Of a stretch of 64,000 nt of DNA, positions 24,985-34,870 are shown piece by piece. This stretch comes from Beijerinckiaceae bacterium (GTDB lineage: Bacteria > Pseudomonadota > Alphaproteobacteria > Rhizobiales > Beijerinckiaceae), in the NCBI GenBank assembly GCA_009773635.1, contig WSYC01000007.1:113897-177896 (forward strand), in the 5' to 3' direction. Under the pieces are notes generated by a model. It did not search any database. It saw nothing but the letters and a program-made list of their open reading frames with translations, and had not been told where the DNA came from. Numbering within the stretch: the stretch's first letter is position 1; the number at the start of each line of letters is the position of its first letter. The position numbers and the translations under genes were made by a program.

Positions 24985-25986
24985 CTACTTCCCGAAGCGC
25001 GAAAAAGTCATGTCCGGCGCAGACATATTATGGCGCGAAGGCGTGTAGCGCCCGGCCCAGAATTCGGTGGCCTCCCCGCCCTTGTAATCAAGAATATGCT
25101 CCTCGCCCCAACGGGTTTTGCCGTTCTCACGCCAGGCAACGCGGGAAGCATCATTGTTGATCTCGGTGACATACATCGACCTGAGCGCCGCGAAGGGCTT
25201 GTCTTTCGGCAGATCGCCCGAGAGCGTCACCTCAAGGCTGATATGATCCTTGTCGAGCTTGTCGAGTTTCAGGCTGCCCGCCCCGCCGGCGCGAAACGGG
25301 AAATGGAAGGTCATCGTCTCCGGGTCAAACCGGATTTCGCTGTAGGCGACCACCGGGCGGCCTTCCATTGTCACCGGTCCGACCATGAAGGACGAGCCAT
25401 AGGCGCTCCAGCCCATATGCGCCGGCGGCAGCGGGCGGGCGCGCCAGTAGCCATCCGGTGGATAGACCACCAGCATTTCCTCCATGCGCTGGCCGATACG
25501 CTGGTAGACCTGAATGAGGTGGATGCCGTGCTCCACCTTGTCGCCAACCTTCACCGGCACGTCCGCCGGCCGCCAGAACGAGGGGTAGACCTGCCCGACG
25601 ATGGAGATCCACGGCGTTTCATACAGCGTCACCTGCCGGGGCTTGCCGGGGTTGAACACGGGATCGCCGGACATGTCGCAATCGGTGAAATCCGGCAGCG
25701 CGAGGTCTTCCTTCAGCGTGCCGATATAGGCCGGATGGATCGCCTGCACGCGGAACGACCGGATGTCCGGGTTGAGAAAGCGGATATCGATATTGTCACG
25801 CTCGGCGCAAACCTCCGGCAAGGAGTGGTTCTCGACCCGCACGGCCTCGCTCGGCGGCTTCTTGTTGTGCGCTCCGAGAACGGTTCTATCCGGGGTATTC
25901 TGGGCAGCAGCGGTCGATATCAGCACCCCCATGAGGGCAAGCGCGACCAGACTGCGGGAACAGGCGTCAGGAGCCGAGAAACGCAT
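24985..25986 (-). CDS. Secreted protein of unknown function, downstream of opgH and FkbM methyltransferase
   Basis: 333 residues from the ATG at 25986, with GGGGGA ahead. A Sec signal (residues 1-28, ending AAAQN) is followed by a soluble, beta-rich-looking domain with several Trp/Tyr and Pro motifs (WISIVGQVYPSFWRPADVP, YWRARPLPPAHMGW). No transmembrane segment after the signal. I do not recognise the family. It overlaps the FkbM methyltransferase gene by 20 bases, so it is the last gene of the opgH operon, and probably acts in the periplasm on the same product. Confidence 0.75.
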   Translation of the reverse strand: MRFSAPDACSRSLVALALMGVLISTAAAQNTPDRTVLGAHNKKPPSEAVRVENHSLPEVCAERDNIDIRFLNPDIRSFRVQAIHPAYIGTLKEDLALPDFTDCDMSGDPVFNPGKPRQVTLYETPWISIVGQVYPSFWRPADVPVKVGDKVEHGIHLIQVYQRIGQRMEEMLVVYPPDGYWRARPLPPAHMGWSAYGSSFMVGPVTMEGRPVVAYSEIRFDPETMTFHFPFRAGGAGSLKLDKLDKDHISLEVTLSGDLPKDKPFAALRSMYVTEINNDASRVAWRENGKTRWGEEHILDYKGGEATEFWAGRYTPSRHNMSAPDMTFSRFGK

Positions 25987-26740
25987 AGACATCCCCCGAG
26001 TTCGCCGCGTGCGGCAAGGACAGGATATGGGCCGCCATATCACCCGCGGAAAGGGCTTGCGCGAAATCGAGCTTCTGGCTTTCGCCGAGCGCGAGATTGA
26101 AACGATACGGCCCGATAGCGGCGATCATCGCAAGGCATTTACAGGCAACATCGCGCTGGATCGTGGTGAATTCGAACGAGAGCGCAGGGATCGGCCGGTT
26201 GAGCCCTGCCAGCACATCGGCCTCGAAGCCCTCCACGTCAATTTTGACAAAATCCGGCACGCCATGTGCAGCGATCAGCGCATCGAGCGTTGTCACCGGC
26301 ACATCGATCGCCTTGTCCCAGACCTGCCCTTCCCAACCCGCAGCGCCATCCGCCGCCTTGACGAAATCAACGCTCGCGGTGGTGACGGTTGGGTTGTCGG
26401 AATTGACATGCAGCGTCAGTACGCCCGGTTTGGGCCCGCACGCCGCCTCGACAACGCTGACAGCCTTGTCGCCGCCATAGATCGCCTTGATCGCGGCGGC
26501 GCAATCCGGCTGCGGCTCCAGCGCCACCACCCGCGCGCCGATGCGGCGGAACGCGCCGATCCGGTCGCCCACGTGGCTGCCGATATCGAAGGCGAGCCCG
26601 CCCTTGGGGATGAAACGCGCGTAGAGCGCATCCATCGAGTCATCGCGCGCGGAATCGCCGTAATAGACCTCGAACGAGCGTTTCAGGCGCGGCCAGCGCG
26701 TGGCCAGTGCGGCGATTTCGGCTTCGGGAAGGCTCATCAA
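25967..26740 (-). CDS. FkbM-family SAM-dependent methyltransferase
   Basis: 257 residues. Motif I is LAFDIGSHVGDRIGAF with the acidic end of strand 2 in VVALEPQPDC. The FkbM signature VPVTTLDALIAAHGVPDFVKIDVEG is present near residue 170. This family O-methylates sugars or other small acceptors. The gene is 20 bases behind opgH and overlaps the downstream secreted protein gene, so a periplasmic-glucan decoration role is possible but not shown. Confidence 0.87.
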   Translation of the reverse strand: MMSLPEAEIAALATRWPRLKRSFEVYYGDSARDDSMDALYARFIPKGGLAFDIGSHVGDRIGAFRRIGARVVALEPQPDCAAAIKAIYGGDKAVSVVEAACGPKPGVLTLHVNSDNPTVTTASVDFVKAADGAAGWEGQVWDKAIDVPVTTLDALIAAHGVPDFVKIDVEGFEADVLAGLNRPIPALSFEFTTIQRDVACKCLAMIAAIGPYRFNLALGESQKLDFAQALSAGDMAAHILSLPHAANSGDVYAFLGS

Positions 26741-26761: not shown

Positions 26762-28600
26762 TCACGCATTTTCTTCACGCGAACCGGGCTCCACTTCGCT
26801 CGAAAATGCTTTTCCTTGCGCCTTCTGAACGATCTCCGGCTTCTCGATTTCCTCCGGGATAGCATAGAGCCCGCCCGCCACGAGCTTCTCACCGAGCACC
26901 GGGTCCGCCGACCACACCGCGAAGGGAATGGCGACGAGGAAGCCGAACGTCAGCGGCAAGGACCACGCCGCAAAGCACCACGAGGTCGAGGCCATCAACC
27001 CGACGACGAGGACGCCGAACGCCGTCTGCGGCCAGAGGTTCTGCGTCGCCACATCCCACGGCACACCATGCGCATCGCGCGCCTGCCCGCCCCAGATGAT
27101 CGACTTGCCGAAGATGAGGCCGGTGATGAACACCGTGGTCTTGAAGGTATCCGCCGCGCCCAAAATCCACGCAAAACCGATCTCGGTGATCCCCGCTAAC
27201 AGGAACTTCGACGTGCCGCCATAGCGCGCCGTGCCGCCGGGCGTCAGCACGATATCGATCAACCCGGCGATTTTCGGCATCAGGTTCATGATCGTAAACA
27301 GGATGTAGAGCGTCAGCGCCGAGGAGGTCGAGAACCCGGCCAACGCCTCGCCATCGAAGGGCTTGAGCGCCGCGAGCGGCAGCATCAGCGTCCAGGCGGG
27401 AATGCCGAGGAACATCAGGATCGCCCAGATGAGCTGGAACCGGCTGACGGGATAAAGCCCCTTCGTGTTCAGGAGCTTGAAATATTGCAGGTTGCCCTGA
27501 CACCAGCGCGTGTTGCGCTTCATGAACTCAAGGATCGTCGGCGGGTTTTCCTCCCACGAGCCGCCCTCTTCGGGCATCACACGGACCTCATAGCCCGCGC
27601 GGCGCATGAAGGTCGCTTCCACCTGATCATGGCTGAGGATATGCCCGCCGAACGGCGCTTCGCCCGGCAGGACGGGTAACTCGCAATGATCGCGGAACGG
27701 CGCGATGCGTGCCAGCGCGTTGTGGCCCCAGAACGGGCCGCATTCCCCCACCCACCACGCCTGCCCCATGGTGTAGGTGCGCATGCCCTGCCGCATGCCG
27801 AACTGAAAGATGCGCGCAAACGCCGAGCGCGATGGCATGCCGACGACGAGGCTCTGCAGGATGCCGAGTTTCGGGTTGGCCTGCATGATCCGGACGTGAT
27901 GCAGGATCGTCTTCGCATCCATCAGGCTGTCGGCGTCGAGCGGCAGCATGAGATCAAACTCATGGCCCCAGCGGTTCAGGAAATCACGGACATTACCGGC
28001 CTTGAAGCCCTCGTTATCCGTGCGGCGGCGATAGGTGATCGCGGCATCCTCACCCGCTTCCGCCTTCCATCTGGCGACGCCGGCCTCTTCCTCGGCGGCG
28101 ACATCATCCTTGTTGGTGTCGGAGAGCAGGAACCAGCCGAAGTGCTCACCCTCGCCGGTCGCATCGACCTCGGCCTTCATCAACTTCATGCGGTGGAGCG
28201 CACGGGAGGGGTCCTCGTTGCGCAGGGTCATGAAAACAGCGGTTTTCAGCGTGATCGGCGCTTCGGGGTTTTCGAGCGCGGCAAACGGCGCGACATCCGC
28301 CATGGCATCGCGGCCACCAAATTTCCTGCTCCCATGCAGCAGCCAGAGGCCGATGATCGCATTCCAGAACCCGAGCACCGCCCAGGGCGTGCCGAGGAGA
28401 AAGCAGATCATGAGCAGGATATCGACCACACTCCAGCCGCCTGCGCCGAGCAGGCTCGCGGCCCAATACGCCAAAGCGCCATAGAGCAGGATGTTGAGGC
28501 CCGCGACAATCGCGCGGCGCAAGCTCAGCACCTCGGCACTCTGGGTGCCGGTCGGGGTCAACGCGATGCGGGGGGAAACCGATGGTGTGTCCGAAGACAT
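26762..28600 (-). CDS. opgH: Glucan biosynthesis glucosyltransferase OpgH (MdoH)
   Basis: 612 residues from the ATG at 28600; the track's start adds 52 unrelated residues. An inner-membrane GT2 enzyme that makes the osmoregulated periplasmic glucan backbone. Membrane helices near residues 30-95 precede the catalytic domain: DTNKDD, DADSLMD, the acceptor region GGHILSHDQVEATFMRR, and RNTRWCQGNLQY (the Q/RxxRW motif), followed by C-terminal helices. No OpgG is nearby. The last 15 or so residues (KAFSSEVEPGSREENA) are encoded by a dispersed palindromic repeat, see the repeat entry. Confidence 0.92.
   Translation of the reverse strand: MSSDTPSVSPRIALTPTGTQSAEVLSLRRAIVAGLNILLYGALAYWAASLLGAGGWSVVDILLMICFLLGTPWAVLGFWNAIIGLWLLHGSRKFGGRDAMADVAPFAALENPEAPITLKTAVFMTLRNEDPSRALHRMKLMKAEVDATGEGEHFGWFLLSDTNKDDVAAEEEAGVARWKAEAGEDAAITYRRRTDNEGFKAGNVRDFLNRWGHEFDLMLPLDADSLMDAKTILHHVRIMQANPKLGILQSLVVGMPSRSAFARIFQFGMRQGMRTYTMGQAWWVGECGPFWGHNALARIAPFRDHCELPVLPGEAPFGGHILSHDQVEATFMRRAGYEVRVMPEEGGSWEENPPTILEFMKRNTRWCQGNLQYFKLLNTKGLYPVSRFQLIWAILMFLGIPAWTLMLPLAALKPFDGEALAGFSTSSALTLYILFTIMNLMPKIAGLIDIVLTPGGTARYGGTSKFLLAGITEIGFAWILGAADTFKTTVFITGLIFGKSIIWGGQARDAHGVPWDVATQNLWPQTAFGVLVVGLMASTSWCFAAWSLPLTFGFLVAIPFAVWSADPVLGEKLVAGGLYAIPEEIEKPEIVQKAQGKAFSSEVEPGSREENA
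26763..26810 (-). repeat. Dispersed palindromic repeat, copy 2, read as the C-terminus of OpgH
   Basis: On the minus strand the sequence GCATTTTCGAGCGAAG...CGTGAAGAAAATGC is 42 of 44 identical by eye to copy 1 at 4823-4866. Here the repeat lies inside the opgH frame and supplies its last residues and its stop TGA. It probably inserted at the 3' end of the gene and replaced the original stop. Confidence 0.8.
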
Positions 28601-28758
28601 AAAAGGAGAACCTTCCTGAGTAGCCGGCGACCAATTTGACGTTCGACGTGCGATCTTCCGCTTGCGAAGCCTATCGCTGCGCGAGATAAGCCAGAAACAG
28701 CGTCGTGCGCCAAGCGGTATCGCGGATGGAAGCTGAACGAAAGCAAACAGGAGCATTC

Positions 28759-29781
28759 ATGGCGGAACAATCCTCGCTTTCCAGATCTGCCTCGCTTTCG
28801 ACAGCCAAGACGAAATCGGCCCGCGCCCTCTATTACACCGCCCCGATGCAGGCCGAGATCCGCACGGTGCCGCTCTCAGCCCTCAAGCCGGACGAAGCGC
28901 TGGTGCGTACTGAATTCACCGCCCTGTCGCGCGGCACCGAACGGCTGATCGCCTCCGGCCTCGTGCCATCAGGCGAGGAAGCGCGCATGCGCTGCCCGCT
29001 GCAGGACGGCGATTTCCCCTTCCCGGTGAAATACGGATATTGCGCCGTCGGCGTGGTCGAGGATGGCCCGGCAGAGTGGGTCGGCCACCGTGTCTTCGTG
29101 CTGCATCCGCATCAGGATCGTTTCGTCTGCAATGTCTCGTGGCTCAATCGCGTGCCGGATTTCGTTCCTCCCGCCCGCGCGGCGCTGGCCGCGAACATGG
29201 AGACGGCGCTCAACGCGATCTGGGATTCCGGCGTCAGCGCGGCAGACAAGGTGGTGGTGGTTGGCGGCGGCCTCGTCGGCCTGCTCGTCACCTGGCTTGC
29301 GGCGAAAATGCCGGGCACGGATGTGACACTGGTCGATATCAACCCGCTGCGGGCGGAAATCGCCGGGCATTTTGGCGCGCATTTCGCCATGCCCGCGCAT
29401 GCACCGGAAGGCGCGGATGTCGTCTTCCACACCTCCGCGAGCCAGCCGGGTCTTGCGACCGCGATCCGCGCCGCGGGCAAGGAAGCGAAGGTTGTCGAAC
29501 TCTCGTGGTATGGCAACCGCGAGATCACCGCGCCGCTCGGCGGGCTGTTTCATGCCGGGCGCGTCAGCCTTGTGTCCTCGCAGGTCGGCACGATCTCGCC
29601 CGGCCATGCCGCACGCGGCTGGACTTATTCATCCCGCCTTCAGGCAGCCTTGCGCTTACTGGCGGATGACAGCCTCGATCAGCTCATCACCGGAACGCTT
29701 GCCTTCGACGATCTCGCCCCGGCCATCCCTCGGCTTCTGGCAGCGGATGCCGCCGGGCTCGTGACCATTGTGACGTATTGA
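28759..29781 (+). CDS. MDR-superfamily dehydrogenase lacking the zinc-binding signature (BchC-like)
   Basis: 340 residues from the ATG at 28759 behind AGGAG. Belongs to the medium-chain dehydrogenase superfamily: EALVRTEFTALSRGTERLIASG, DGDFPFPVKYGYCAVGVVE, a coenzyme fold VVVVGGGLVGLLVTWLAAK with Asp at strand 2 (TLVDINPLRAE) fitting NAD(H). The canonical GHE zinc signature and the four-Cys structural zinc loop are absent. The N-terminal wording resembles BchC and related proteins. First gene of an operon with a pterin synthase homologue, glycosyltransferase and methyltransferase. The substrate is unknown. Confidence 0.82.
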   Translation: MAEQSSLSRSASLSTAKTKSARALYYTAPMQAEIRTVPLSALKPDEALVRTEFTALSRGTERLIASGLVPSGEEARMRCPLQDGDFPFPVKYGYCAVGVVEDGPAEWVGHRVFVLHPHQDRFVCNVSWLNRVPDFVPPARAALAANMETALNAIWDSGVSAADKVVVVGGGLVGLLVTWLAAKMPGTDVTLVDINPLRAEIAGHFGAHFAMPAHAPEGADVVFHTSASQPGLATAIRAAGKEAKVVELSWYGNREITAPLGGLFHAGRVSLVSSQVGTISPGHAARGWTYSSRLQAALRLLADDSLDQLITGTLAFDDLAPAIPRLLAADAAGLVTIVTY

Positions 29782-29815: not shown

Positions 29816-29900
29816 CGTCATGGTCGGGCTTGGCCCGACCATCCACGACTTCTCACTATCGGGAAGCCGTGGATACCCGCCCCAAAGGGCGGGCATGACG
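29816..29900. repeat. Cloverleaf-shaped palindromic element between operon genes
   Basis: Outer stem CGTCAT (29816-29821) pairs with ATGACG (29895-29900). Inside are three hairpins: GGTCGGGC/GCCCGACC (29822-29840), ATCCACG/CGTGGAT (29841-29874, with CTTC/GAAG continuing the stem), and CCCGCCC/GGGCGGG (29876-29893). The result is a four-way-junction fold in the 163-base gap between the dehydrogenase and pterin synthase homologue genes. It looks like a dispersed intergenic element of rhizobial type. Confidence 0.85.
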
Positions 29901-29944: not shown

Positions 29945-30346
29945 ATGTTCGCCGTAGAAGTCCGTGACCGCATCATGATCGGCCACTCCCTGCCCGACCC
30001 GTTCTTCGGCCCGGCGCAGAACATGCATGGCGCGACCTTCGTGGTCGATGTCGCCTTCTTCCGCGAAACAATGACCAAGCAGAACGTGGTGGTCGATATC
30101 GGCGCCGCGCTCGATACGCTGGCGGCGGTGCTCAAGCCGCTGAAATACCAGAACCTCGATACCATCCCGGCCTTCAAGGGCATTCTCACCACCACCGAAT
30201 TTCTCGCCAGGCATATCTTCGATGAAATGGCGAAGGCGGCAAAATCCGGCGCGCTCGGCGGGGATGGCAAGGGCCTGACGAAAATTCGCGTGACGCTGCA
30301 CGAGACCGATCTTGCGCGCGCCTGGTTCGAAGGCCCCCTCTCCTGA
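29945..30346 (+). CDS. 6-pyruvoyl-tetrahydropterin synthase / QueD family protein with altered metal site
   Basis: 133 residues, the usual size. The PTPS/QueD fold is recognisable: N-terminal beta strand then IMIGHSLPDPFFG, QNMHGATFVVDV, VVVDIGAALDTL (the DFG-type region), NLDTIPAF, TTTEFLARHIFD and VTLHETDLARAW with the catalytic Glu. Zinc ligands differ: the usual HGH becomes HGA and the catalytic Cys before it is replaced by an Ala/Gln/Asn stretch. The substrate may not be dihydroneopterin triphosphate. It is followed 8 bases later by a glycosyltransferase. Confidence 0.85.
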   Translation: MFAVEVRDRIMIGHSLPDPFFGPAQNMHGATFVVDVAFFRETMTKQNVVVDIGAALDTLAAVLKPLKYQNLDTIPAFKGILTTTEFLARHIFDEMAKAAKSGALGGDGKGLTKIRVTLHETDLARAWFEGPLS

Positions 30347-30354
30347 GCGCCGCG

Positions 30355-31434
30355 ATGCTCGCGAGGGCCCCGATGCACGATGTCGCCTTCCTGATCCCCG
30401 GCGATCTCACCCTGCCGACAGGCGGCTATGCCTACGACCGCGCGGTCATCCGGCTGTTGCCCTCGCAGGGGCTCAACGCCATGCACGTGGCGCTGCCGGG
30501 TGCGTTTCCGAACGCCAGCGACGCCGACCTCGCCGATTGCCTCGCGATCGTCCAGAGCCTGCCACCGGGCTGCACGCTGCTGATCGACGGCCTTGCCTAT
30601 GGCGCGATGCCGGCCGAGCTGATCCGCGCCTTCAACCGACCGGTGGTGGCGTTGTGCCACCATCCGCTGGCGCTGGAGAACGGCATTTCGGCCGACCGCG
30701 CACAGGCGCTGCACCTTTCGGAGGCCGCCGCGCTCCACCTTGCGAGCCATGTCATCGTCACCTCGCCGCTGACGGGCAAGATTTTGCAGGGCGATTTCTC
30801 GGTTCCCGCCGGAAAGATCACCGTCGCCGAGCCCGGCACGGCCCGCAAGCCGCGCGCCACCGGCTCGAACGCGGCGCAGCTCGAACTGCTGGCCATCGGC
30901 TCCATCGTCCCGCGCAAGGGCTATGGCGTGCTGATCGAGGCGCTCGCCGGACTGAAAAAGCGTAACTGGCGGCTGAAAATCGTCGGTGCTGCCCGCTCGC
31001 TCGATACCGTCAATACGCTTCAGACCCAGATCACGCAGGAAGGGCTGGGTGATCGCGTCCAGCTCCTCGGCGCGGTCCGGGACAAGGAGATCGACGAGCT
31101 CTATGACAAGGCCGATGTCTTTGTCATGGCCTCGCTCTTCGAGGGTTATGGCATGGTGCTCGGCGAGGCGATGCAGCGCGGACTGCCCATTGTCACCACC
31201 ACCGGCGGCGCGGCCAACGAGACCGTGCCTGAAGGCGCGGGGCTCAAGGTGCCACCGGGCGATCCCGATGCACTGCGTGCCGCACTGGAACGCGTGATGG
31301 CCGACCCTGCCTTGCGCGCAACCCTCGGCGAGGCCGCGTATCACGCCGGCCAGACCCTCCCGACCTGGGATGATACCGCCCGGATCATCGCGGGAAGCCT
31401 CGCGCAGTTTTCCCTTTCGAGAAAGGCTTCCTGA
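30355..31434 (+). CDS. Glycosyltransferase family 4
   Basis: 359 residues (start ATG 30355; 30373 is also possible). A GT-B enzyme: VAFLIPGDLTLPTGGYAYDR at the N-terminus, VVALCHHPLALENG and ASHVIVTSPLTG, then the GT4 half with LAIGSIVPRKGYGVLIEAL, VMASLFEGYGMVLGEAMQRG and its E-x7-E, and NETVPEGAG. It sits in an operon with pterin synthase and methyltransferase genes, 8 bases after the first and overlapping the second by one base (TGATG). A soluble small-molecule acceptor, such as a pterin, is an attractive but unproven idea. Confidence 0.88.
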   Translation: MLARAPMHDVAFLIPGDLTLPTGGYAYDRAVIRLLPSQGLNAMHVALPGAFPNASDADLADCLAIVQSLPPGCTLLIDGLAYGAMPAELIRAFNRPVVALCHHPLALENGISADRAQALHLSEAAALHLASHVIVTSPLTGKILQGDFSVPAGKITVAEPGTARKPRATGSNAAQLELLAIGSIVPRKGYGVLIEALAGLKKRNWRLKIVGAARSLDTVNTLQTQITQEGLGDRVQLLGAVRDKEIDELYDKADVFVMASLFEGYGMVLGEAMQRGLPIVTTTGGAANETVPEGAGLKVPPGDPDALRAALERVMADPALRATLGEAAYHAGQTLPTWDDTARIIAGSLAQFSLSRKAS

Positions 31435-32285
31435 TGACCGGCTTCTCCGCCTCCTGGCTTGCCTTGCGCGAAGGAGCCGATCACCGCGCGCGCAATGCCG
31501 CACTCGCACACCGGGTTGCTGGCCGCATGAGCGATACGCCGCTGCTGCGCGTGCTTGATCTTGGCTCGGGAACGGGCTCGAACCTGCGCGCGAGCGCGCC
31601 GCACCTTGGTCCCAATCAGGAATGGACGCTGGTCGACTACGACCCGGCGCTGCTCGAAGAGGCCGCGCGGGCGCTGACCCGCTGGGCCGATGATGCAAAA
31701 GCCATCGGCGACAGCCTCGTGCTGATCAAGGGCGGGCAGACGATCGGCGTCTCCTTCCGCATTGCTGATCTCAACACCGAGCTTGAGGCGGTGCTGGCGA
31801 AAAAGCCGGATCTTGTGACAGCCTCGGCGCTCTTCGACCTGATTTCGGCCCCGTGGATGGCGCGCTTCGCGAAAGCCGTGGCGGCCTCCGGTGCCGATTT
31901 CTACACCGTTCTGACCTATGATGGCCGCGATGAGTTCGCGCCTGCGCATCCGCTCGACCACGCCGTGATCGCGGCTTTTGCGACCCACCAGAGCCGCGAC
32001 AAAGGGTTCGGCCCTGCCGCTGGCCCCAAGGCTGCCTCCGCGCTCGCGGACGCTTTTCGCACGGCTGGCTATTCGGTTGAAACCGGGGATTCGCCCTGGG
32101 TGCTGGATGCGGGCGACAATGCGCTCGTGCAGGAGCTGCTGAGCGGAATCGCCGGGGCGGTCTCGGAGACAGGGCTCGTCACCCTCACCGCCCTCGCGGA
32201 ATGGCTCGCCTTCCGCAAGGCTGCCGCGTCAAAGCCCGGCGCAAAGCTCGTTACCGGTCACACCGATATCCTGGCGTTCCGGTAA
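31434..32285 (+). CDS. Class I SAM-dependent methyltransferase
   Basis: 283 residues. Motif I is VLDLGSGTGSNLRA with post-I WTLVDYDPALLEEA. Later strands: LVTASALFDLISAPW and FYTVLTYDGRDEF. The start ATG overlaps the glycosyltransferase stop. The domain structure resembles small-molecule rather than rRNA methyltransferases. Last gene of the dehydrogenase/PTPS/GT/MT operon; convergent with the cytochrome b561 gene 8 bases away. Confidence 0.86.
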   Translation: MTGFSASWLALREGADHRARNAALAHRVAGRMSDTPLLRVLDLGSGTGSNLRASAPHLGPNQEWTLVDYDPALLEEAARALTRWADDAKAIGDSLVLIKGGQTIGVSFRIADLNTELEAVLAKKPDLVTASALFDLISAPWMARFAKAVAASGADFYTVLTYDGRDEFAPAHPLDHAVIAAFATHQSRDKGFGPAAGPKAASALADAFRTAGYSVETGDSPWVLDAGDNALVQELLSGIAGAVSETGLVTLTALAEWLAFRKAAASKPGAKLVTGHTDILAFR

Positions 32286-32293
32286 TCGTCCCG

Positions 32294-32845
32294 TCAGGGC
32301 AGCATCCGCCGGAGCACGCCATCCTTGAGGACAACGCGGTGGAACAGCGCCGCACCGACATGCGCGCCGATCAGCAGCACCAGGAATATCGCGGCATAGC
32401 CGTGGTATTTCAGGATCGCCTCGCCAAGGAGCGTATCCTTGCCCAGCAGCGCCGGCAGCTGGAACCCGCCGAGCAGCCCGCGCGCGCCATAGGCCGAAAC
32501 GCCGAGCCAGCCGAGGAGCGGCACCGCCAGCAGCGCAAGATAGATCAGGCCGTGCACGGCTTCGGACACAATGACCTGAAAGCGGTTGAGCGTGGCCTCC
32601 GGCGCGGGCGAGCCGACACGAACCCGAACGATGATCCGCACCACCATCAGCGCGAGCACGATGATCCCGAAGGTCTTGTGCGCGGTGTAGAGTTCGTTGG
32701 TCATGGCATCGAAATTGGTCAGCGCACCGCGCTTCCTCATATAGAACCCGACCGGAACAAGCACGACAACCAGCAGTGCGACAACCCAGTGCAGCAGCTT
32801 CTGCGTGCCGGAATAGGCGGATGGGCGAACCGATTCTGACGACAT
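32294..32845 (-). CDS. Cytochrome b561 family di-haem membrane protein
   Basis: 183 residues from the ATG at 32845, four membrane helices with haem-ligand His residues: QKLLHWVVALL (helix 1), YTAHKTFGIIVL (helix 2), EAVHGLIYLALL (helix 3) and KYHGYAAIFLVLLIGAHVGAALFH (helix 4). Typical length 170-190. It passes electrons within the inner membrane. The gene starts four bases after the stop of the RibD-type reductase gene, so they are co-transcribed. The ligand set looks complete. Confidence 0.9.
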   Translation of the reverse strand: MSSESVRPSAYSGTQKLLHWVVALLVVVLVPVGFYMRKRGALTNFDAMTNELYTAHKTFGIIVLALMVVRIIVRVRVGSPAPEATLNRFQVIVSEAVHGLIYLALLAVPLLGWLGVSAYGARGLLGGFQLPALLGKDTLLGEAILKYHGYAAIFLVLLIGAHVGAALFHRVVLKDGVLRRMLP

Positions 32846-32849
32846 TGTG

Positions 32850-33575
32850 CTATTCTCCCCGCGCCTGACGGTCCACGAACTGTCCGAAGTCACAATCGAA
32901 TAGCACATCGCCCGCGCCAAGCGAAATCACGCTGACCTCGGGCCTGAGCGCATCCTTCAGGAGGTCGATCGGTCGAAGATCGAGCCCCGCCTGCCCGGAC
33001 CCGATGATAACAGCGGAAATCATCAGGTGGAGCCGGTCGACGATCCCGATATCGATCGCCCGACTGATGATGCGCGCTCCGCCCTCGATCAACACCTTGG
33101 AGAACCCGAGGCGCAGGAGTTCGCGCGCGACGGCCCGGAGATCGAAATGCCCGTTGGCATCAACCGGCATGCCGATAATCTCAACGCCTTCAGGCAGCGC
33201 ATCAAACGCCGAACCCGAAGGGCGGAACACGATCCGGCGCGCGCCATCGCGCCCATCGAGGCACTGCGCTTCAGCAGGCAGGGTTCCGCGTGCATCCAGA
33301 ATGACGCGCGCGGGGTTAACTCCCTGACAGCGCCGCACCGTCAGCTGCGGATCATCGGCCAGAACCGTGCCGATCCCGACGAGAACGGCATCCACATGGG
33401 CACGGATACGATGGAGATGAACAAGCGAAGGCTCCGCCCCGATATAGCGGCTGTCACCGGTGCACGTCGCAATGCGGCCATCGAGAGATTGCCCCAATTG
33501 GGCGACAATAAAGGGCCGATCCCGCGCAGAAGTGCGAAAATGGGCAAAAGACGCGCGGGGATCGCTGGGCATCAC
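32850..33575 (-). CDS. RibD C-terminal (pyrimidine reductase)-family protein without deaminase domain
   Basis: 241 residues, dihydrofolate-reductase-like fold only. Motifs: AQLGQSLDGRIATCTGDSRYIG, VDAVLVGIGTVLADDPQLTVR (the conserved Gly-Thr-Val-x-x-Asp-Asp-Pro turn), KVLIEGGARI with the NADPH-binding GG and a C-terminal GS/SG region. The N-terminal cytidine-deaminase-like domain of RibD is absent. Upstream of cytochrome b561 and divergent from ribA (173 bases). It may act in riboflavin or in a pterin-related pathway; the canonical ribD in this window seems damaged. Confidence 0.84.
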   Translation of the reverse strand: MMPSDPRASFAHFRTSARDRPFIVAQLGQSLDGRIATCTGDSRYIGAEPSLVHLHRIRAHVDAVLVGIGTVLADDPQLTVRRCQGVNPARVILDARGTLPAEAQCLDGRDGARRIVFRPSGSAFDALPEGVEIIGMPVDANGHFDLRAVARELLRLGFSKVLIEGGARIISRAIDIGIVDRLHLMISAVIIGSGQAGLDLRPIDLLKDALRPEVSVISLGAGDVLFDCDFGQFVDRQARGE

Positions 33576-33748: not shown

Positions 33749-34870
33749 ATGGGTGATGTAAACCAGATTCTCGGGCTTTTCGATACCGCTGGCGAGCGCT
33801 CGGTCGATCGGGCCATTGCGGAGTACCGCGCCGGCCGTCCCGTCGCAATCCTTCAGAATGACGAGGTGCTCGTTGTCCTGAATGTCGAGGCGCTTGATGC
33901 GCAGATCGCACAGGCTTTTGACGCTCTGGCGCCGGGGCGCGCCCGGTTGATCCTTCCGGCTGCACGGCTGCGCCGCCTCGGGCTTGAGCGTGTGATGCCG
34001 GGCGTTGTCTCGTTCCCGACGCCCAATGCCGAGCGCGCCGAAATGCTCGGCCTCCAGATCGAGGGCCGGATTGACGCCCCCGTTGCTCCGGTTGTCGCGC
34101 TCGACGAAGCTGCGCTCGAACTTGCCCGCATCACGCTGGTGAGCCCGGCGATTTACGCCATTCCGGTTGCGAAATCGGTACTTTCGGTCGGGATCGTGCA
34201 GGTTGAGGCCGCAGAGATTGCTGCCTACCGCGCGAGCCAGGTCAAGGCGATCAAGATCGTCGGCCGGGCACCGGTCCCGCTGGAATTCGCGGCAGAAACC
34301 GAGTTTGTCGTATTCCGCGGCGGCGAAGGCCTCAAGGATCAGGTCGCGATCATCGTCGGCAAGCCGGATTTCTCGAAGCCGGTGGCCATTCGCATGCACT
34401 CGGCCTGCCTGACCGGTGATCTCTTCGGATCGCTCAAATGCGATTGCGGTGACCAGCTGCGCGGCACGGTCCAGAAGATGGCCGAAGGTGACGGCGGCAT
34501 CCTGCTCTATCTCGATCAGGAAGGGCGCGGCAACGGCATCGCCAACAAGATGCGCGCCTACAAGCTGCAAAGCCAGGGTTGGGACACCTATGACGCCGAT
34601 GAAGTCCTCGGTTTCGGGCTCGATCAGCGCCGTTTCGATTTTGCCGCCGTGATGCTCAAGCAGCTTGGCGTCAATACCGTCCGCGTGATGACGAACAACC
34701 CGGAAAAAATCGGCGCGCTCAATGCTGCCGGGCTTGAGGTTGTCTCGGATCAGCGTGCTTTCGGGCGTTCGACACCGGAAAATGTCCGCTATCTCGCCTC
34801 CAAGCGCGATCGTGCCGGGCATTTCATCGATTTCGACGCGATGGTCGCGCACGCACCCGTTACGGAATAA
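33749..34870 (+). CDS. ribA: GTP cyclohydrolase II with degenerate N-terminal RibB-like domain
   Basis: 373 residues. The C-terminal half is a complete GTP cyclohydrolase II: MHSACLTGDLFGSLKCDCGDQL supplies the three zinc Cys residues, LYLDQEGRGNGIANKMRAY is the catalytic Arg region, and YDADEVLGFGLDQRRFD is the family tail. The N-terminal ~180 residues are DHBP-synthase-like but lack the acidic DDEDREGE-type metal motif, reading QNDEVLVVLNVEALDA instead, so DHBP synthase activity is unlikely. It opens the imidazole ring of GTP, first step of riboflavin synthesis. It is divergent from the RibD-type reductase. Confidence 0.93.
   Translation: MGDVNQILGLFDTAGERSVDRAIAEYRAGRPVAILQNDEVLVVLNVEALDAQIAQAFDALAPGRARLILPAARLRRLGLERVMPGVVSFPTPNAERAEMLGLQIEGRIDAPVAPVVALDEAALELARITLVSPAIYAIPVAKSVLSVGIVQVEAAEIAAYRASQVKAIKIVGRAPVPLEFAAETEFVVFRGGEGLKDQVAIIVGKPDFSKPVAIRMHSACLTGDLFGSLKCDCGDQLRGTVQKMAEGDGGILLYLDQEGRGNGIANKMRAYKLQSQGWDTYDADEVLGFGLDQRRFDFAAVMLKQLGVNTVRVMTNNPEKIGALNAAGLEVVSDQRAFGRSTPENVRYLASKRDRAGHFIDFDAMVAHAPVTE

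Follow-up and report, generated by a model that had tools for sequence, protein, structure and literature searches.

A PTPS-fold subfamily that lacks the zinc-thiol residues of QueD and lies in a conserved gene cluster, possibly a pathway fed by GTP cyclohydrolase II

Enzymes of the PTPS/QueD type hold their zinc with His residues that include both of an HGH motif, and a Cys just before this motif is catalytic. The window analyzed here, a 64,000-nucleotide stretch of a Beijerinckiaceae genome, encodes a 133-aa protein in which the motif reads HGA, and thus raises the question of what a member of this superfamily does once the groups that define its chemistry are gone. The gene is an ATG-started open reading frame of 133 codons that fills its interval exactly (Table 1). 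Its product scores 74.9 bits against the PF01242 profile (cut-off 22.4) and has the T-fold, with Foldseek matches to PTPS and QueD at a probability of 1.00, which bears out the homology proposed in an earlier note on this DNA. The motif region is GPAQNMHGAT, and the codons themselves give H28 (CAT, 30026-30028), G29 and A30 (GCG, 30032-30034), so that the HGA described in that note is a correct reading. Its statement that no catalytic Cys precedes the motif holds as well, position 24 being Ala where E. coli-type QueD has Cys. H14, H28, E85 and E120 are retained, among them the first His and the C-terminal Glu that the note had listed as kept. To these losses we add one that it did not mention: Lys67-Tyr68 replaces the Asp-His of the canonical PTPS/QueD triad.

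These replacements are common to all relatives, which rules out an isolated mutation or a sequencing error. In an alignment of 124 subfamily rows (a few loci entered twice) with 12 other alphaproteobacterial PF01242 proteins, position 30 is Ala in 124/124 subfamily rows and HGH in none, the Cys site is Ala in 123 and Gly in 1, and the triad His site is Tyr in 118, Phe in 5 and Leu in 1. FHGE or IHGE strings occur elsewhere in subfamily proteins; the motif column itself is always Ala. All 12 of the other proteins have HGH and the triad His. Six of these (L131, L134, L137, L139, L142 and L145) form a separate Cys-less group with Tyr or Ser at the Cys site. The HGA proteins, including the solved structure 3d7j, fall on one side of a branch with support 100/99, and the 133-aa protein belongs with them by full-length homology, by HGA/Ala24/Tyr68 and by its place in one clade with 3d7j. 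Judged from the alignment, HGA and the associated losses mark the subfamily as a whole and are no peculiarity of this protein. Since every relative is missing a zinc His, the Cys and the Asp-His pair, the canonical PTPS/QueD reaction cannot be the one carried out by this protein, in agreement with the expectation in the earlier note that its chemistry must differ.

H14, H28, D51, E85 and E120 are without variation in the 124 subfamily rows, and S15, T31 and D72 are likewise invariant. One might therefore imagine that the protein is still a metalloenzyme in which H14 and H28 hold a metal together with a non-His third ligand, or with one supplied by an adjacent subunit or by the substrate, since there is no other obvious reason to keep both His in 124/124 rows. 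We consider this quite unlikely, given that position 30 is always Ala, that H14 and H28 are the sole invariant His so that no substitute completes the site, that no Cys is invariant, and that the paper on 3d7j is said to report no zinc.

That structure, of Streptomyces coelicolor SCO6650 (2008), is the nearest solved protein, matched at 3e-36 with the single sequence and at 1.7e-59 with a profile; the subfamily profile scores it at 203 bits. An AlphaFold2 model of the 133-aa protein (pLDDT 95.5) superimposes on 3d7j in Foldseek with an rmsd of 1.0 A over 130 columns (TM 0.95), and on E. coli QueD with an rmsd of 2.6 A, so that the fold is indeed as clear as the note had claimed. In a search of viral folds (BFVD), the only matches at good scores were ordinary phage QueD-like proteins. 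The 2008 Acta Crystallographica F paper on SCO6650 (Spoonamore, Roberts, Heroux and Bandarian) reportedly found no zinc, no catalytic triad and no PTPS activity, along with a pocket suited to a pterin-like ligand. The residue losses are thus in essence already published for the Streptomyces relative, and it is the gene context of the subfamily that seems to be the undescribed part: a literature search on SCO6650, its neighbours and the cluster, with the 2008 structure paper outside its reach, found no description. Computation in the present analysis shows the residue losses, the subfamily membership and the fold, and also the linkage and co-occurrence of the genes.

NCBI labels relatives of the protein 6-carboxytetrahydropterin synthase, and there is a weak match to the QueD model. 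It might on these grounds be a decayed or misannotated QueD, a reading that we regard as highly improbable. The score against TIGR03367 is 32.6 bits, far under the cut-off of 89.25, and neither the QueD set (the Cys, the HGH zinc pair and Asp-His; here Ala24, HGA and Lys67-Tyr68) nor the Cys-Asp-His triad plus three zinc His of the PTPS of BH4 synthesis is present. Nor does a decaying enzyme fit with conservation across several bacterial classes on a separate, well-supported branch, or with four genomes that carry an HGA protein plus a separate PF01242 copy. In the 3.24-Mb genome of the window the 133-aa protein is the sole PF01242 protein. FolE is present, and a search of the genome for QueC (PF06508) returned only weak matches of 35.9 and 26 bits, in frames of 451 and 581 aa, which are taken to be other PP-loop proteins. 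With the QueD score below the cut-off, the residues missing and no convincing queC to supply a preQ0 context, we rejected a QueD function and conclude that this is not a queuosine enzyme.

The neighbouring genes are listed in Table 1.

Table 1. The PTPS-like gene and its neighbours in the window
Feature	Coordinates	Strand	Basis
FkbM-family methyltransferase, peripheral neighbour	25967..26740	-	PF05050
MdoH/OpgH-like membrane glucosyltransferase, divergent from cluster	26762..28756	-	Profile match
Zinc-less medium-chain dehydrogenase (MDR), BchC-like, SRGTE motif conserved	28705..29781	+	BchC model 45 bits, below its cut-off
PTPS-like protein, SCO6650 (HGA) subfamily, 133 aa	29945..30346	+	PF01242 profile, alignment, predicted fold
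GT4-family glycosyltransferase	30355..31434	+	PF00534 123 bits
Class I SAM-dependent methyltransferase (MT)	31434..32285	+	PF13649
Cytochrome b561 family membrane protein, overlaps RibD_C gene	32294..32920	-	PF01292
Stand-alone RibD_C reductase, no deaminase domain	32850..33575	-	Domain search and nearest-relative comparison
GTP cyclohydrolase II (RibA), zinc Cys motif and catalytic Tyr kept	33749..34870	+	NF006456 491 bits, over cut-off; alignment to E. coli 2bz0

The true start of the MDR is probably nearer 28810, because homology begins at about residue 37, and the GT4 stop codon and the methyltransferase start codon overlap in the sequence TGATG. A palindromic sequence, GGTCGGGCTTGGCCCGACC, lies between the MDR and PTPS-like genes (29820-29846) and is single-copy in the window. 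Beside the FkbM and OpgH-like genes lies a 352-aa protein without a Pfam match (24985-26043, minus strand), an arrangement seen in 23 of the best 80 named loci.

Across relatives, the order MDR-PTPS-GT4-MT is nearly fixed in Alpha- and Gammaproteobacteria and Actinomycetota, and the cluster is found in the window and in most relatives, including the Streptomyces loci L112 and L156. Neighbours were counted in the best 80 of at least 584 encoding loci from a scan of named genomes, and in a second set of 38 loci with short flanks; genes in GC-rich flanks were called by homology, antisense open reading frames being present there, including one of 589 aa over the PTPS-like gene. The best 80 named loci include 70 with the MDR close by, 73 with GT4 and 75 with the methyltransferase, and within about 1.5 kb at the short-flank loci the counts are 36/38, 37/38 and 35/38. 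Less constant in the same 80 are the OpgH-like gene (51), RibD_C (45), cytochrome b561 (44), RibA (34) and FkbM (31). In other lineages a CDP-alcohol phosphatidyltransferase takes the place of the OpgH-like gene (14 loci versus 39, one with both; Fisher p 6e-6 before kinship is considered).

The PTPS-like gene is an accessory trait, since its presence is patchy even inside the family to which the window belongs. It occurs in 36 of 289 alphaproteobacterial genomes, and plasmid copies exist in Streptomyces, Microbacterium, Arthrobacter and the gammaproteobacterium Thiodictyon. Exactly those 36 genomes, and none else of the 289, also have the MDR, and the methyltransferase is found in 33 of the 36 and in no other. 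The chance of such co-occurrence is about 1e-46 for the MDR and 3e-40 for the methyltransferase if genomes are treated as independent, and kinship makes the true figures less extreme. Two Streptomyces plasmid copies (L113 and L118) are not part of the cluster and have cupin, MBL-fold and BTAD regulator genes nearby.

Two of the less constant neighbours indicate where a substrate might come from. None of the six RibD proteins scanned has a deaminase domain in addition to the reductase domain, and the window RibD_C is nearest to the archaeal-type 2,5-diamino-6-ribosylamino-pyrimidinone 5'-phosphate reductases, which act before deamination. In the RibBA of the genome (L120, C20:106121-106564), the GCH II domain has lost both the Cys motif for zinc and the catalytic region. 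Riboflavin synthesis must therefore draw on the window RibA as well, which is probably the one GCH II still working in this genome, and finding it in the cluster says less about a dedicated pathway. Two Streptomyces clusters, of S. fungicidicus (L112, 13645-15138) and S. globisporus (L156), have a RibA with Met at the catalytic Tyr that adjoins a creatininase-family protein. The S. coelicolor Met-type enzyme SCO6655 stops at the formylated intermediate, and the pairing of a Tyr-to-Met RibA with a creatininase is fitting for a two-enzyme route through that compound. The creatininase-family protein BrbF is an experimentally shown formamidase for this intermediate, AFRPP (PMC9478397). The pairing rests on two related loci, because a third, L100, joins a creatininase to a Tyr-type RibA.

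Taken together, these observations lead us to favor, at a probability of about 0.5, a metal-free PTPS-fold protein that works in a conserved, GCH II-fed pathway and acts on a 2-amino-4-oxo pyrimidine or pterin. We infer the substrate, the order of steps and the product as follows. The subfamily would have discarded the zinc-thiol machinery and kept the pocket for a 2-amino-4-oxo pyrimidine or pterin ring (E120 and E85, with H14 and H28). RibA would make 2,5-diamino-6-ribosylamino-4(3H)-pyrimidinone 5'-phosphate from GTP, and in Streptomyces the Tyr-to-Met RibA together with the creatininase-type formamidase would arrive at the same compound. The stand-alone RibD_C would then reduce it without deamination, leaving the guanine-like 2-amino edge intact. 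It is this edge that may tie the pocket to the neighbours, since the edge recognised by the invariant PTPS Glu persists as long as the 2-amino group is not removed. Our guess is that the PTPS-like protein carries out a metal-free acid-base step on the RibD_C product or on a pteridine derived from it, after which the BchC-like MDR would adjust the oxidation state of a side-chain alcohol and the GT4 enzyme and methyltransferase would decorate the product. Against this pathway, RibA is missing near the cluster in over half of the best 80 named loci, some of them on short contigs, and L113 and L118 have the PTPS-like gene without the cluster.

The PTPS-like protein itself may act either as a catalyst without metal or as a binding partner. 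In the second case it would be non-catalytic, either carrying a pterin or serving as a subunit that stabilises the substrate or presents it to the MDR or the glycosyltransferase. This would befit a protein that, in all its relatives, has lost every catalytic group of the family while the fold, the pocket Glu and two His are frozen. The co-occurrence with the MDR in 36/36 genomes, usually in adjoining genes, is also what one would expect of a complex. Nevertheless, the invariance of H14 and H28, and of S15, T31, D51 and D72, suggests more than a scaffold, and the two Streptomyces plasmid copies stand apart from the MDR, so that we find a binder rather unlikely.

The remaining neighbours hint, but no more than that, that the product is used at the envelope. 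An alternative built on them is that the PTPS-like protein serves envelope glycan or lipid assembly, not pterin chemistry, and that its T-fold pocket now binds a sugar or a lipid headgroup. The OpgH/MdoH-like transferase, the CDP-alcohol phosphatidyltransferase, LPG-synthase-TM flippase-like and YfhO-like proteins are all found nearby, and the near mutual exclusion of the OpgH and CDP-alcohol enzymes fits the same idea. It is nonetheless unlikely in our view, because the cluster repeatedly includes RibA and RibD_C and the two Glu that recognise the ring never vary. Returning to the GCH II-fed pathway, its fullest version, which would be an undescribed one, can be proposed only tentatively. In many species, numbering in the hundreds, the GCH II product might be reduced without deamination and then converted, by a PTPS-fold enzyme that needs no metal and by the BchC-like dehydrogenase, into a glycosylated, methylated pteridine-type compound that is attached to the envelope or moved across it.

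The subfamily is routinely annotated as 6-carboxytetrahydropterin synthase though it is devoid of the residues for that reaction, which makes queuosine reconstructions built on HGA proteins unsafe. An orphan structure of 2008 becomes a member of a tight gene set found in the same genomes, and in the same order, in Actinomycetota and Pseudomonadota. The function of the subfamily thereby becomes testable, because the set offers concrete knock-outs and a predicted precursor.

How the protein relates to known systems can be seen by comparison with each in turn. A review of COG0720 lists PTPS-I to PTPS-IV, of which it discusses the first three (PMC5041015). With QueD/PTPS-I (E. coli QueD, 4ntk, 3qna) the window protein has in common the T-fold, the first zinc His, the ring-binding Glu and about 20% identity in the structural match, whereas it is without the Cys, HGH and Asp-His, falls outside the QueD model and is unlinked to queuosine genes. 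Eukaryotic PTPS (1b66, 3i2b, 2g64) resembles it in the T-fold, two of three zinc His, TTxE and the C-terminal Glu, but has the catalytic triad and the third zinc ligand that it lacks. PTPS-III types such as Plasmodium PTPS and other Cys-less PF01242 proteins likewise have no Cys at the usual site, although the Cys-less alphaproteobacterial ones keep HGH and the triad His, unlike the SCO6650 subfamily. The early riboflavin steps of the archaeal/BrbF type (GTP cyclohydrolase, ArfB/BrbF formamidase and archaeal-type reductase) are echoed in the GCH II product, the formamidase-like protein of some loci and the deaminase-free reductase, yet the subfamily loci carry PTPS-like, MDR, glycosyl- and methyltransferase genes, not lumazine synthase. 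The closest precedent is SCO6650, which is 50% identical along its full length, likewise has HGA, Ala at the Cys site and Tyr at the triad His site, and has the same fold; its close relative L112 (S. fungicidicus) sits in the same gene cluster as the window protein. The L112-type Streptomyces cluster differs in having the Tyr-to-Met RibA and the creatininase where the window has a Tyr-type RibA, and the window has an OpgH-like gene, not the CDP-alcohol phosphatidyltransferase.
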